Assembly (NCBI GenBank): GCA_025062375.1
Contig: JANXAG010000016.1
Span: forward strand, 1 to 39,081
Reading direction: 5' to 3'
DNA length: 39,081 bases
From: Anaerolineae bacterium
GTDB taxonomy: Bacteria > Chloroflexota > Anaerolineae > SpSt-600
Each line of letters opens with the position of its first letter. The first letter of the stretch is position 1. Position numbers and translations under genes: made by a program. Below the pieces are notes generated by a model. It worked only from the letters and a program-made list of their open reading frames with translations. It ran no database searches and was not told the DNA's origin. Below are positions 3,291-33,707 of the stretch, in pieces.

Positions 3291-5957
3291 TTATTCCAGG
3301 CCCCTTCGCACATCTATTTGTATGCTATCGTTTTCCCATCTTGACCCATCTTCCTTAAAGGCAGGGAGCCTCCTCAGGGTATCAAGCTCGTAGAGACCAA
3401 CTAAAACTAATTCCGGGCTTACCCCGGGGGAAACGGGAATACGCCGGACATCTTCTATAACCTGTCCTGGGAGCCACCTGGAAGTGGGGTAAAGCCCTCT
3501 GACGGGAGGGCCATCGGCCTGGGCGATGATTTTATTCTGGTGATCCACGAGGTGGACAAAAACCTGAAAATCGCGGGAAACCTTCCTGTTGGCCTGCCAG
3601 TAGAGGGTTAAAGTTAGGAGGTAATCTCCTTTGGTCAGGTGGTATCCGAGAAGCTTTATGCCTTCGTCGGGGAAAAGTTGAAGGTATTTTATGGGTATTT
3701 TTACCGGGTGTCTGGGCTGAACGTTTACCCACTCCGAAAGCTCTATGGTCCCCAACCCCTGCATTGTTTCGCGCTCATACAATCCCACCTTTACACTGAA
3801 AGCCACCGGTGGGGTATCTGGGGGGATGCGCACATAGTGCTCATCTACGACGTATAGCGAGGGATTCCAGGTGGACGTTGGGATATAGGCAGGGTGCATT
3901 GAATCCGATTGGGCGTACAGGCGGCCATCGGTGCCGATTAAATGCACAAAAGATGAGTAATCTTTGTCCAGAAATTTCAAAGCCTGCCAGTAAAGCCTTA
4001 CGTGCAATTCGCCCCCTTGGCGCACAACCTTTGATTCAAGATCGTAACCTATAAGGGCTACTTTATCTCCGAGCCTTAAATTCACAGAATTTTGAGCTGG
4101 CAAGGCTTTGCCCGGAGGAGATTGCAGCCTGAACCAGAAAGTATGCGGCTCTATCCACCAAACTTTTAGGATTAAAATCCCTGCCACAACAAGCGCCAAA
4201 ATTGAGCTTTCCTTCCGGGCCCCATCGGTTTCCTGTCGTTTCTGCCCCCGTTTTCCCTTGAGCCATAGATTTACAGCAAAAGTTAAAAGTAACCCCAGGA
4301 GTGAAATAAATTTGCCGAACTTGCGTACAGGGGTATCCCTGAAGGCTAAGGCAATGATGTGTTCCCCAGGGGGAGCTTCAAGGCAAATGAGGCCGCTTTC
4401 CGGACAGGGCTTCAGAGGGATTTCAGTCCCATCAAGCCACCCCTGCCAGCCCGGAAAGTAGAACTGAGCCACTTCAAGCACCATAGGCTCGTGAAGGTCC
4501 ACCTTAAACTTCATGAAGTTAGATTTCACTTCCAGGATTTCCGCCTCGCCCTTGACCAGAGCTTTCCGCAAAAGGCCTGGCTCTATTGCTGGGGCCTCAG
4601 GGACCTTTACAGTCCATACGCTTAAATATTCGCTGGCAGAAGTTGTCCCCGGCTCGTTATTGGCTTGCTCATAGGAAACGAACTCTTGCGGTGTTGCCTT
4701 GAGCGGCAGGAAAGGCCGGGGAAACTGGTAGGAGAACACGGAGATTATTAATCCCACGGTGGCGACAATTACTGCCGGAAGCCTCAAGAGAGGGAGGTCT
4801 CTGACCCACAAAACCGAGGCCCCTGCGAGCAGGGAAGAGAAAATAAAGGCTATGCCGTACATCCGCGAAGGGTACTCGGTAAAGGCTATAAAGGGCAGGT
4901 GGCGCCAGAGGGGCAGGGACGGTGGCAACATCATGAAGGAGGAGAACAAAGTGCCTGCCATGGCAAAGGCCAGGTGCCACCTCTGGAAAGCGTTCAAACC
5001 TTTTCGGAAAACCGCCAGGGTGCCTATCCCTGCAAGGAGAAGGTGAAATCGGCCGAAATTGAAGGGCATCGGGGGGTTCGTAGCCCGATAATCCAGCGGT
5101 GGTGAGGGGGCAAAGAGCTCCTGAAGCCGCAGAAAATGCTGGGCGACATCAAAAAAGCCCCGGGTAAGAACATACACTTGGGTAAAATGCTGTTCCACAA
5201 GGGCAGGGAGCCAGAAGATAGCACCCCCAGCCCCGGCGAGAAGAAGCGCTCCGACCAAGGCAGGGAGCCTGTTTTTGTAAAAGCGGAAGGAATCTCCTCC
5301 CACGAAAACCACACAGGTAAGATAAAGGACAAGCACAGGCCCGAAAAGCATTGCGCTTATGTTGTGGCACAGAAGCAGAGCGGTGAGGGAAAAAACTGCA
5401 CCGGTAAAGTTTAGCCTGCGCGGTTCTTCCCACAGGCGCCGGAAGAAAAACAGAACCCAGGGATAGAGACTCCAGGCCAGGAATTGAGCATAATTTCCCT
5501 GAAAGTAGAGCTCCCGGAAGCGGTAAGTGGCAAAGGTATATGCAGCAGAAGCAACTATGGCCCCCTCTCTGCCCACTATATCTTTAGCCCATAAATACAT
5601 GGCCAATGAATAATTGAGACTGCTCAGGAACAGGACGGCCTTGAAAGCGGTGAGCAAATCTGGCAGGATCAGGTTAAAGGTGGAAGTTGTTATGTAGAGG
5701 AAGGGAGCGTAAAAGTTGAACAGCGGGTACCCGTATCCATAATAGAGCAGGGTATGCCAGCGTGGCCACAAAACGCCTTCATCCCAGCTCCACCGCCACA
5801 GAGCGGACCTGAAGAAGTGCAGAAGGCCATCAGCCGTGTTGGGTAACCCTGGCTTGAACATGGGTTCTATCAGGAGAAACGAAAACAAGATGCATACGGG
5901 GATAAAAGGGTCTATTGAGGGAAGCCTCGGCTTTAGATTTAAGCTTTGCAATTTCAC
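3291..5957 (-). CDS. Large PTPS-related / glycosyltransferase-like membrane protein with duplicated C-terminal domain
   Basis: Protein of 888 aa. The first about 570 residues carry many transmembrane segments and motifs of the PTPS-related or YfhO/PMT-like membrane family (ADGLLHFFRSA near the N-terminus, GYPLFNFYAP, YRFRELYFQGN, FTEYPSRMYG). Such proteins are thought to act in envelope polysaccharide or lipid-linked sugar transfer, but the activity is unproven. The C-terminal third has two similar soluble domains (from about 625 and about 750), each with LYWQA, FVHL, a TSxW motif and VGLYE. The GTG start overlaps the upstream thioesterase stop as GTGA, making this the last gene of the thiI operon. 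Confidence 0.7.
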   Translation of the reverse strand: MKLQSLNLKPRLPSIDPFIPVCILFSFLLIEPMFKPGLPNTADGLLHFFRSALWRWSWDEGVLWPRWHTLLYYGYGYPLFNFYAPFLYITTSTFNLILPDLLTAFKAVLFLSSLNYSLAMYLWAKDIVGREGAIVASAAYTFATYRFRELYFQGNYAQFLAWSLYPWVLFFFRRLWEEPRRLNFTGAVFSLTALLLCHNISAMLFGPVLVLYLTCVVFVGGDSFRFYKNRLPALVGALLLAGAGGAIFWLPALVEQHFTQVYVLTRGFFDVAQHFLRLQELFAPSPPLDYRATNPPMPFNFGRFHLLLAGIGTLAVFRKGLNAFQRWHLAFAMAGTLFSSFMMLPPSLPLWRHLPFIAFTEYPSRMYGIAFIFSSLLAGASVLWVRDLPLLRLPAVIVATVGLIISVFSYQFPRPFLPLKATPQEFVSYEQANNEPGTTSASEYLSVWTVKVPEAPAIEPGLLRKALVKGEAEILEVKSNFMKFKVDLHEPMVLEVAQFYFPGWQGWLDGTEIPLKPCPESGLICLEAPPGEHIIALAFRDTPVRKFGKFISLLGLLLTFAVNLWLKGKRGQKRQETDGARKESSILALVVAGILILKVWWIEPHTFWFRLQSPPGKALPAQNSVNLRLGDKVALIGYDLESKVVRQGGELHVRLYWQALKFLDKDYSSFVHLIGTDGRLYAQSDSMHPAYIPTSTWNPSLYVVDEHYVRIPPDTPPVAFSVKVGLYERETMQGLGTIELSEWVNVQPRHPVKIPIKYLQLFPDEGIKLLGYHLTKGDYLLTLTLYWQANRKVSRDFQVFVHLVDHQNKIIAQADGPPVRGLYPTSRWLPGQVIEDVRRIPVSPGVSPELVLVGLYELDTLRRLPAFKEDGSRWENDSIQIDVRRGLE

Positions 5958-20690: not shown

Positions 20691-20713
<23 letters not shown>
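20510..20713 (+). CDS. Small Cys-rich protein, probably zinc-binding
   Basis: A 67-aa protein with CANCG near the N-terminus, then [14 protein letters not shown] and an acidic tail; seven Cys in about 35 residues suggest a small zinc or metal site. I do not know a function. ATG 20510 is chosen because GGGAGGG lies at 20499-20505. The 3' end overlaps dnaK by 23 bp and contains the dnaK ribosome-binding site, so the two are co-translated; a role near chaperone or metal/redox stress is only a guess from context. Confidence 0.75.
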
Positions 20714-22577
<1,864 letters not shown>

Positions 22578-27949: not shown

Positions 27950-29203
27950 ATGAAAAGCCACGGACTATGGATAATGTTGGTAGGCATTTTGCTCCTTGGA
28001 AGTTGTGGGAGAACTTTGTACCCCCCCCATCGCCCCTCACCACACCCACGGTTAACCTATGCCCCTACTTCCCCCATCTCCGGAAAAAAATAACAACCTC
28101 ACCCCTGACTTACCCCGGAATCCTGCACCCACCTCTGGGCTATCGGTGGGTTGAAAGAAAAGTTGAGAGGGTTTCCCTAGTTGAGGATAGGCTGGTTTGG
28201 CTTAAGGAGGGGGTTCTGGAATGCATCCACTTCTCCGATCGTCAGGTGCTCTGGCGATACAATCCGCCCGTAAGCTTGCGGATCGCTGATATAGCAGTTG
28301 TAAAGGACAGGGTTTTCTTCTTGGCATATCAGCAATTAGGTCCATCCGCCCGACGCATTAGGGTTATAGCCCTGAGGCTTAATAGCGGTAGTCAGCTCTG
28401 GGAGCGCTCTTTATACGGTCCATTACTCCCTCTATGCTGCTGAGCATACGGTATATGTTTATGATGGGGTAATTTCCACGCTTACGGCTCTGGATTCCCA
28501 CACTGGTGAAATCCATTGGCAGTACACTGGCCAGTGTTCCGGCCCGGCACTAGCAGTGGAAGGGAGATTATGGGTGCAATGCGAGAAAAACTTAATTGAA
28601 CCGGATGAATGGACAGGAGAAATTAAGGCGCAACTGACTAATCTGGCAGCCGAACAGATTGCATATAAGGACGGCTTTTTGATAACCATCCAATCCGCCT
28701 GGCCCGAGAATATTACCCACCAAAGTCAACTTCCAGATACGTCTATAATCGTGTGGAAAAGACAACATGAACACCCGCTCTGGAGCGTTATTAACCCTGG
28801 TCCCCCTTCCGGTTTGTGGGTGAGTGAGAGGACATTAATTTACAGGGCAGGGAAGACTGTGCGGCACGTTAATCTCCAGAATGGTGCGATCGTGTGGGAA
28901 ACCAGACTTTCCGACGAAAGGGGCACAAACTTGCTTGGGGCTGGGAAAGTGCTTCTGGTGGGAAGCCATGCTGGCTATCTCCATGCGCTTGATAGGGAAA
29001 GTGGTCATCGGTTATGGAGTCGGGATCTCTGGACAAGCCTGAAGCCAGGCTCGTTCCATGTCACCGTATTGGGCGTCTATAAAGAGGCCGTTCTTCTGAA
29101 AATAGGTAAGTACGTGGCAATGCTGATTCCAAACGGGCAGACATCCTGGCCTATTCCACCGCCCACTCCTGCGCATGTGCCAGAACCGGAAGCATTTGAG
29201 TGA
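27950..29203 (+). pseudogene. Frameshifted PQQ/WD-like beta-propeller lipoprotein
   Basis: The first frame (ATG 27950) starts with a lipoprotein signal, MLVGILLLGSCG. The propeller part continues in a second frame to 28443 and a third frame to 29203. PQQ-type repeats are spread over the later two frames: LNSGSQLWERSL, then ALDSHTGEIHWQY, NLQNGAIVWETRL and ALDRESGHRLWSRDL. The first shift lies at or between a C8 run (28020-28027) and an A7 run near 28083-28089. The second, near 28411-28435, is not in a homopolymer and looks like a real indel. The intact form would be a membrane-tethered propeller protein of about 415 aa; the gene is either broken or affected by sequence errors. Confidence 0.75.
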
Positions 29204-29781
29204 AAAGCTCCCAAAATATCCAGACCGCCTGAGGACTGGTCTCCCCCTTCCCCTGCGGAAATTACCAGACTCTCACCCAAGTAAATGGCCGAAGCCCATC
29301 TTCAGATATTAACCAATTTCAAAGGAGCAAGAAGATACGCTGCCTGGGGGTTGTCTGGCCTCTGATTATTGGTCACAGATATATTTTTTCCCTGCCGATA
29401 GAGGTGGAGGAACGTAATTAATTCCGGTTCAGACCTGAATTTGAGATATCTGGCTTCGCTAACTCTATCATTCGGCCTGACATACTCCCATTAGCCCTTG
29501 TGCCAGGTCGTTATCGATGCTCAACCTGCGGAGTCGCTTGGGATAAGAGCTCCCCACGTCCAGCACCCTTTCGTCAGGCTGTACTGAGGGGCTTGAAGGC
29601 CATTTCCACCGTTTGGAAAATCCTGATGGGCTCCAAAATTACTACTGGGGGCTCTGGGCAACTTTTCTGCCGGAGTGCTGGTGCAGCAAAATATCCTGAT
29701 ACTCATCCGAACCTCAGCTTAAGTTTTTTGACATTGATGCCCATGTATGGTATTTTATCAGTGTTAAATTGAGAATCGGAG
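29204..29781. other. Gene-poor stretch before the Cas10-like gene
   Basis: No intact gene is supported. Plus-strand frames switch often; a short open stretch around 29575-29700 (ending NYYWGLWATFLPECWCSKIS) looks like former coding sequence. No CRISPR repeats are visible. Confidence 0.35.
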
Positions 29782-29787
29782 GTGGAT

Positions 29788-31932
29788 ATGAGCTCCCCCT
29801 TCTTCCCAGAAATGCACGACCTGGTCAAACTTGTTAACCCTAAGGGCTCATTCCCCACCAGGGATGGGAAACCTTTAACCCTTGCCGACAGCAGTGGTAA
29901 GGTCTTTGCCAATCTGGACCTTTCAAAGCTTGGTTTAGAAGACAAGAAATTCTTGCCCACCCTTCAGGCTATTTTTTACGCCGGCCATTTTCCTGAAGAG
30001 GAGTTGATCGATGCTCAGCTCAGAAAGAAGTTATTCTTGCTCGAATTAGCTCATAAGTTGGCCTCTGCCTTCCCGGAAAACGTTGTTCCCGCCTCAGGGG
30101 AGCCCACCTTTTCCTTTTATAAACTCTGGCAGCCTCAGCATGCTTCTTTAACTCAATTTACCCCTCCTATAAGCAACAGTCAGGCCTTAAAGGAAGCCCT
30201 GGAAATGGCCACCTCCTGGGAAAAGGGCCAGAGCTTTTGGGAGAAGTTTTCCTCGCATTTAAAGGTTCGGAGCTACTACGATTACAAGCCCTTTAACATA
30301 GCATCCCTTTTCGCTCATTCCTACCTCACTTCCCAATTTTACAAGGCCCTGGAAGAAAAAGTGGTAGAAATGGAATCTCCATGGAGACTTGCCCTTGAAG
30401 GGGAAGAAGCTTTTACACCTGAAGAAGCTGAGCAGAAGTGGTTTGGCCGTGTTGTATGGGGCCAGGTAAATTTCTACCAGAAGCCCCAGGTCCTTGATGA
30501 CCTCAAAGTTTTCCGCAAGCTTCAAGAAATTATAGCTGATTTAGAAGAGGCTTTCAATTCCAACGTAATCGCCACTTTTTACAATCACTTCTGGCTTTTT
30601 ATCCCGGGCAGAGACAAACAAAGCTTGGAAAAAATCGCCGATTTCTTTACAGAGAAAGGCTTTCCGGTGACCCTTCGCTACCAGGAAGCTCCTCTGGCTA
30701 CGTTAGGAGAATCCAGGGCTATAGAGTTCAGGATAATCCTCCTGGAAGCCATGGCTTCAGAACTGACACGCCTTAAAGGCGAAGAGGAAAGCCGGAAGGT
30801 GCAGCTGGAAGAAGACCTCAAAGTTCAAGAAAGACTTGCAGCCGAGTTGGAGAGAGAGATAGCGAAGCTTGAAGAGGAGCTCAAACGCCTTACCTCTCCC
30901 AAAACCCGTCATGCTACCCGTAAATTGAAGAAAGAAAGGGAGAAAACCTACGGGAACGTAACTTCTCGCCTTCAAACTCTGCGGCAAGAAATCAGCAATA
31001 TTGAGGGGAAGCTGAAGAAGATAAATGAAGAAATAGCCTGGCTGGAAGAGCAATTAGTTAGGGAAAGAGCCGAGAAAAGCAAAGGCCCTACATGGTACCA
31101 GGAAGAAAAACATCCCCCTGAGATACGAAAAAGACAAAAGGGGATAGAATTATGCCAGGTCTGCGAGGCAAGGGAGCCTGCTAAAGGCAGCGAACTTTGC
31201 TCCATATGTCAGGAGATCAGGACATCGGAAGGGGATTTTTCCAGCCAGATTTCCTGGCTTTCAGGAGGTTATCTCCTCTGGCTCTACTGTTTCTTTGAAC
31301 CAAGGTTCTGGCAACACGCCATACTCACCCTCTTCAGCAATTACCTGGACAAAGTAAACCCTGGCCTCTGGGGGGCCAGCCAGCGTTTTCATCTGAAGAC
31401 TTCTTTGCGGTGGCCTGTAATAATTAGAGACTTTATAGATGACCTTCAAAGCTTTCTCAAAGAGCTGGAGCTGGAAATATGCCGGCTCGTGGGAGCCAGA
31501 AATCGCATCCGCTTGGCTGATAACCTCTGGATTATGCCTATATCTCGGGGAACAAAAGTGGTAATCCTTCTCAGAAGTTACATAGCTCTCCTGGAGAAGT
31601 TTTTCCCTTCCCTTATCCCCTTAGCTGATATGCCCATATACCTGGGGATAAGCATAGCTCCAGCGTCAGAACCATTCTTCAGTCAGTGGCACTATTTGAG
31701 GCGCCCCCCTCAGCCGATAAGCCTTAAGCTTCCAGATCAGGAACGCCTGGAAGTGAGCATCAATATCATGAAGGAACTCATCCGCTACGGCGAAGTCATG
31801 ATAAGTTACCGCCAGAGGCGACGCCCATCTCTGGAGCAGGTCAGGATTGAGGAGCTTATTGCCAGGAATATAATCAAGCGCCAGGATGTGAAGACCTTCC
31901 AGCAGCTCATTGGCTGGGAAGCCCCCTCTTAA
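29788..31932 (+). CDS. Cas10-like (Csx11/Cmr2-type) protein lacking GGDD, with a central coiled coil
   Basis: Protein of 714 aa. Features that fit Cas10: an HD dyad at the N-terminus ([10 protein letters not shown]10-D11); [11 protein letters not shown] in the place of the family's AD-L-S helix; YKLWQP; a [17 protein letters not shown] stretch resembling the P-N-x-SL-x-DHS-x-LTA motif of Cas10 (H177; the Asp is Ala); a zinc ribbon C456xxC459-C471xxC474; and a C-terminal part with [18 protein letters not shown] like the second palm domain. The cyclase GGDD is absent; the matching place reads SRGT (586-589). A long coiled coil fills about 330-435. ATG 29788 follows GGAGG at 29778. No other cas gene or array is near. 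If not Cas10, it is an unknown zinc-ribbon/coiled-coil protein. Confidence 0.5.
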
Positions 31933-32032
31933 CAAAAAAGCCTGGAAGGAGTCACTAGGTCTCGGAGAGCTATCCAGAAACAATGGCCAGAGAGCTGGAA
32001 AAGGGAATACTTTGTTTCCTCGGAGGGGAAAA

Positions 32033-32482
32033 GTGAAAGTCCTGCTTTTAGCGAACGTGAAAGGATTAGGTAAAGCTGGAGATATCAAGGATGTGGCCGA
32101 CGGCTATGCTCGTAATTATCTTATCCCCAAGGGCTTAGCTGTGCCTGCTACACCTGAGAATTTGAGCAGGGCGGAATTCAAAAAGCGTGTCCAGGAAGAG
32201 AAAATGAAACGCCTGGCCGAAGATATGCACGCCTTAGCTGAGTTTCTCTCTGGCATGACCCTTACATTTAAAGTTAAGGCTGGGGAAAAAGACAAGTTAT
32301 TTGGTGCTGTAACGACTGCTGATATAGCCTTAGCCCTGGAAAAGGAACTGGGCCGCCCCTTTGATAAACATAAAATAGAGCTTGAAGAGCCTATAAAACA
32401 GCTGGGGATCTACAATGTCCCCATAAGGCTGATGCCTGGCCTTGTAGCTCAGGTCAGGGTAGTGGTAGAAAAAGAATCTTAG
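32033..32482 (+). CDS. rplI: 50S ribosomal protein L9
   Basis: Protein of 149 aa. The N-terminal domain has [33 protein letters not shown] and the long connecting helix; the C-terminal domain has [12 protein letters not shown]. The start is GTG 32033 with GGAGGGG at 32022-32028; the frame is open further upstream, but that part is not coding. It lies 100 bp after the Cas10-like gene and overlaps the convergent yjbQ gene by 4 bp. The usual partners rpsF, ssb and rpsR are absent. Confidence 0.97.
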
Positions 32483-33620: not shown

Positions 33621-33707
33621 GGAGGGATGGCCGAGTGGACGAAGGCGGCGGTCTTGAAAACCGCTGTGGGGTAAGCCCCACCGTGGGTTCGAATCCCACT
33701 CCCTCCG
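33621..33707 (+). tRNA. tRNA-Ser (anticodon TGA)
   Basis: Acceptor GGAGGGA pairs with TCCCTCC, discriminator G. The anticodon arm is GCGGT-CTTGAAA-ACCGC with TGA at 33655-33657. A long variable arm (GTGGGG/CCCCAC) and a T arm GTGGG-TTCGAAT-CCCAC follow. The class II shape and anticodon identify tRNA-Ser reading UCA and related codons. CCA is not encoded. Confidence 0.97.

Follow-up and report, generated by a model that had tools for sequence, protein, structure and literature searches.

The window analysed here (the whole stretch of 39,081 nucleotides) contains at 29788-31932, on the forward strand, an intact 714-codon frame encoding a protein of 714 aa. The frame starts with ATG 29788, 5 nt downstream of a Shine-Dalgarno sequence GGAGG (29778-29782, forward strand); an alternative call of 716 aa, from GTG 29782, overlaps the same GGAGG. 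A preliminary description, made from the sequence alone, had read this frame as intact, and both the frame and its start behind the GGAGG were confirmed.

Downstream, on the same strand, an N-acetylmuramoyl-L-alanine amidase gene survives only as its last 30 codons, with one TAG (31944-32033), and is followed by an intact rplI gene for ribosomal protein L9 (32033-32482). Two related genomes, G001 and G002, carry orthologues of the 29788-31932 gene (the window's own genome is designated G000). The amidase gene is intact in G001, where the orthologue overlaps it and it overlaps rplI in turn; in G002 the orthologue also overlaps an amidase gene, inside which the contig ends. As the window retains only a remnant of the amidase, this enzyme cannot be an indispensable partner. 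An amidase-Cas10 defence pair was ruled out, because amidases of this kind are present in 33 of 41 genomes (the window's remnant included) and because, in 18 amidase loci inspected outside the family carrying the orthologues, rplI was never nearby.

Upstream, a gene for a BamB/PQQ-like lipoprotein (27951-29203) is broken over several frames; no homologue of it was found in G001 or G002. Thus, the earlier impression of decayed flanks holds for this gene and for the amidase remnant, but not for rplI, which is intact beyond the remnant. Elsewhere in the window, a strong match to the Pfam family NAD-GH (PF10712) at 21036-22538 on the reverse strand lies antisense to a 628-aa ORF (20691-22577, forward strand) and probably represents a spurious frame; a tRNA gene (33621-33707, forward strand) was the sole Rfam match.

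Relationship to Cas10 of subtype III-F

Searches of Pfam, NCBIfam and PDB sequences with the window protein returned coiled-coil or chance matches only. The PADLOC Cas10a/Cas10f profile (PDLC01558) matched aa 7-658, almost the full length of the protein, with E=6.2e-41, and in hhalign a profile of the three orthologues was aligned to a profile of seven III-F Cas10s with probability 100 and E=6e-67. The by-eye assignment to Cas10 in the preliminary description was therefore correct as to the family, although the subtype, III-F, had been missed. Judged by these comparisons and by the orthologues, the gene at 29788-31932 (forward strand) is a genuine Cas10, the large subunit of a rare type III subtype, here standing alone. 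The rarity of III-F is seen from the same profile, which matched 11 of the 346 genomes of the class sampled; three of the 11 belong to the orphan family described here and eight are others.

Phylogeny had been proposed as a check. In a midpoint-rooted tree, built without an outgroup and with few III-F members, the three orphan Cas10s formed one clade (100/100) that grouped with the III-F Cas10s of loci L046 and L044. The stem of this clade is long (1.59) and its inner branches are short, a shape that would fit rapid early change and later constraint, such as a switch of function in a protein should leave behind.

The HD dyad (H10, D11; 29815-29820), kept in all orthologues and in III-F Cas10s, the ten-residue block beginning at aa 173 and the zinc ribbon CxxC...CxxC (C456-C474; 31153-31209) are present as first described. 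Behind the zinc ribbon lies a conserved region (aa 490-640; 31255-31707) that by order is the equivalent of the cyclase/palm-2 domain, without GGDD. At the position where GGDD had been said to be replaced, we do find SRGT (aa 586-589; 31543-31554) and no cyclase motif; still, this alignment column is variable in III-F (RDG, EKG, SAG). None of the motifs GGDD, GGD, GDD, GDE and GGE occurs in the three orthologues, and GGDD is absent from all 10 aligned sequences, including all seven complete III-F Cas10s examined. It is known that III-F Cas10s generally keep the HD domain and that the cyclase motif is missing in all of them (PMC11229360). The loss of GGDD is therefore a trait of the subtype, and we ruled it out as a peculiarity of this gene.

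Similarly, the coiled coil before the zinc ribbon, at about aa 308-431 (30709-31080; helices 308-367 and 371-431), was correctly noticed, but it is not an insertion private to this gene. The distance from the DLxxF motif to the zinc ribbon is 218 residues here and 206-209 residues in the two nearest III-F Cas10s, which have a similar coil-like stretch; in two shorter III-F Cas10s it is 129-130 residues. Acquisition of the coil by the window gene alone was thus ruled out. The part after the zinc ribbon is shortened, with 259 residues in the orphan protein versus 297-350 in III-F Cas10s.

AlphaFold2 models of the full-length protein and of its N-terminal part (aa 1-323) were poor, with mean pLDDT of 40.6 and 37.3, the coiled coil being the sole confident part (pLDDT mostly 85-93 over about aa 330-410). 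In the N-terminal model, aa 222-318 follow the order of a palm/RRM domain (strand-helix-strand-strand-helix-strand and a last strand), with pLDDT mostly <60.

Among known systems the nearest relatives are the III-F Cas10s, which share with the orphan protein the full-length profile match, the domain order, the absence of GGDD, the zinc ribbon, the SLxxH motif and, in the closest of them, the coil. Csm1/Cas10 of III-A has the same order of motifs (HD, with HH and AD following in Csm1, then SLxxH and the zinc ribbon) but Csm1 has GGDD and an intact HD site; direct similarity between Csm1 and III-F profiles was confined to the zinc ribbon. Subtypes III-G, III-H, III-I and III-C, with the cyclase inactivated or lost, likewise have a Cas10 without cyclase activity; these are multi-gene effector loci (PMC12669027), whereas the orphan is a single gene. 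Another Cas10 relative outside CRISPR is mCpol of Panoptes, a minimal stand-alone Cas10-type enzyme that is reported to be a miniature signalling enzyme (PMC12657230, PMC12657218). Unlike mCpol, the orphan protein is of full size and lacks the cyclase motif, and no effector gene is near.

Searches for partner genes

The gene had been described as solitary, with no array or effector gene near, and this was borne out. We saw no other cas gene beside 29788-31932, the neighbours being the amidase remnant and rplI, and no CRISPR array in the window; most III-F loci are without arrays according to the literature. Genome searches for III-F partners covered cas5 and cas7 in three draft assemblies (G000 95% complete, the other two 82 and 84%). 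Profile searches found no III-F Cas5 and no DevR/Cas7 in G000, G001 or G002, and no RAMP gene (PF03787) in G000 or G002; III-F Cas7 was also missing from G000 and G002; in G001 its profile gave only a weak match (5e-5), on a different RAMP gene. The same RAMP, Cas5 and Cas7 searches succeeded in the III-F genomes G013 and G018, and those for Cas5 and Cas7 in G136 as well.

Among the eight other genomes matched by the Cas10 profile, HMM searches identified Cas5_IIIf, Cas11f and Cas7_IIIf beside cas10 in the operon of G013, Cas5_IIIf and Cas7_IIIf in G018 and G136, and an adjoining RAMP-family Cas7 in G117 and G059; G218, G044 and G097 have similar ORF layouts, with cas5 and cas7 judged by eye only. 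The orphan gene differs from these III-F Cas10s in having no adjoining Cas5, Cas11 or Cas7. All three assemblies carrying it being draft, one could suppose that it belongs to an ordinary III-F locus, the other genes of which were left unassembled. We consider such an artefact highly improbable: effector genes share the operon with cas10 in the five III-F loci with HMM-checked partners, whereas amidase/rplI come next in all the assemblies that show neighbours, and none of the three genomes yielded a III-F Cas5. Incompleteness might have cost one assembly a partner gene, but hardly all three. We conclude that the protein belongs to the III-F Cas10 family but stands outside any III-F system.

Several features of the III-F loci may be mentioned in their own right. 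Two loci of III-F type (L044:2293-4337 and L048:625-2566) have a separate reverse transcriptase gene (PF00078) and cas1 beside cas7, making up an RT adaptation module. In a third (L045:4825-8932) the genes upstream of cas10 include cas1, one predicted to be cas6-like and one for a Cas3d-like helicase. In G018 the III-F cas10 occupies two overlapping frames (L041:1562-3302), due to a frameshift or an assembly error, and a four-repeat array is present in the same locus (5286-5552). A five-repeat CRISPR array (L046:10510-10857) is situated downstream of a III-F operon with cas6.

It is conceivable that the orphan protein is still in use as a CRISPR large subunit and associates, in trans, with crRNAs or Cas proteins that are encoded in other parts of the genome. 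Material for such an association exists to some extent: one contig of the window's genome (G000:C53, L049:2-3280) carries, at its edge, the end of a Cas5a-like gene with cas4, cas1, cas2 and cas6 (cas4 and cas2 recognized by eye), and further type III modules, Csm1 included, are present in G001. There is no array on C53, and DevR-type Cas7 was not found. Against action in trans speaks the absence of RAMP-family genes from G000 and G002 and of III-F Cas5 and DevR/Cas7 from all three genomes. A further objection is the shortening of the C-terminal region, where, judged by position, Csm complexes make contact with Cas11. We regard this explanation as quite unlikely.

Orthologues and selection

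A search of relatives for the same solitary gene and a dN/dS analysis had also been suggested, and both were carried out. The orthologues have intact frames and identities of 76% (same genus) and 61% (same family); that of G001 is divided between two contigs, on each of which the frame runs open as far as the edge. When 84,980 GTDB species genomes were scanned for patterns with short exact-peptide seeds, by which distant relatives could be missed, only the same two orthologues came back; no relatives were found in viral contigs or plasmids.

For the three orthologues the GY94 estimate of omega was 0.094 overall, indicating purifying selection; all omega values are approximate, because most pairwise dS values were saturated. 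The lowest values were observed for aa 126-315 (0.044) and aa 490-638 (0.061), and higher ones for the HD region (0.149), the zinc ribbon (0.152) and the coil (0.117). With respect to G001, dN was 0.151 for the orphan Cas10, 0.099 for rplI and 0.313 for GDT1.

With the partners gone, the adjacent amidase a remnant and the upstream gene broken, the gene could be taken for a functionless, decaying relic of a lost III-F locus. Nevertheless, three frames have stayed intact across saturated synonymous change with omega of about 0.09, and dN to G001 is close to the rplI value and lower than the GDT1 value; a relic is thus a very doubtful explanation, and the orphan Cas10 is not a dying remnant. The preliminary description had offered two readings, and the same data disfavour the first, the last survivor of a type III locus, and make the second, a domesticated Cas10 relative, the better one.

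The HD site and possible roles

The permuted HD site of Lactococcus lactis Csm1 consists of His13, Asp14, Asp80 and His206 (PMC8964682). By motif order, Csm1s of the Anaerolineae class show HD, HH, AD and SLYDH, and III-F Cas10s show HD, HH (the first His in 7 of 7), ADHL or SDHL with the Asp (7 of 7) and SLxxH. In the alignment all three orphans keep HD and SLxxH, but have Ala-Gly in place of HH (A65, G66; 29980-29985) and His in place of the conserved Asp (LADHL to LAHKL; H89, 30052-30054). By motif order, H89 probably matches Asp80 of the L. lactis protein; SLFAH (30304-30318) corresponds to SLYDH, the C-terminal His block of Csm1, and its His probably matches His206. The H, D, D, H site is therefore incomplete: H10, D11 and H177 are kept, while the Asp is His89 and HH is AG. 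In a Csm1 of G001 (L069, G001:C271) the HD dyad itself is lost (LLKHIGKF versus LLHDIGKF elsewhere) and GGDD is kept.

Since many Cas10s are known from the literature to have no recognizable HD domain, the H, D, D, H site being usual and not universal, these changes bear on activity rather than on family membership. The classical HD nuclease activity was probably lost or changed in the orphan Cas10; H10-D11-H89-H177 may still coordinate a metal in the HD fold. The separate HD nuclease role suggested earlier, when the replacements of HH by AG and of Asp by His had been overlooked, is weaker on their account.

One could still think of a solo HD phosphohydrolase or nuclease, in which the palm is dead and the HD site, with His for Asp, binds metal and cleaves ssDNA or another substrate in stand-alone defence or repair. 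The three orthologues all have H10, D11, H89 and H177, isolated Csm1 was reported to be active as a DNase (discussion in PMC8964682), and III-F Cas10s generally retain HD, as said above. On the other hand, none of the three orthologues retains the HH motif or the conserved Asp, and omega in the HD region exceeds the 0.04-0.06 of the palm regions; we consider such an enzyme unlikely. As constraint is strongest on the two palm-containing regions and not on HD, we favour a non-catalytic role, probably in binding or as a scaffold, with the palm at its centre. Retention of HD and SLxxH would be compatible with a surviving metal site, and so with a possible enzymatic role.

With somewhat better than even confidence, then, we see here a III-F Cas10 domesticated after the loss of its system for a new role outside crRNA-guided immunity, a reading that draws on three genomes of one family. 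In the ancestor of this Anaerolineae family the III-F operon would have disappeared except for its Cas10. In its new role the protein may work alone or with a non-Cas partner, possibly as a scaffold, based on the two palm-like regions, that binds nucleic acids or nucleotides, the coiled coil serving for self-association or partner binding. It is, by a small balance of probability, a non-CRISPR cellular protein: a stand-alone Cas10, cyclase-less and altered in HD, maintained by purifying selection beside housekeeping genes in one Anaerolineae family. If so, the large subunit of a class 1 system would clearly have been exapted, with a full-size Cas10 outliving its effector complex and remaining under selection, and one could then ask what a Cas10 does when it has neither crRNA nor cyclase nor a normal nuclease site.
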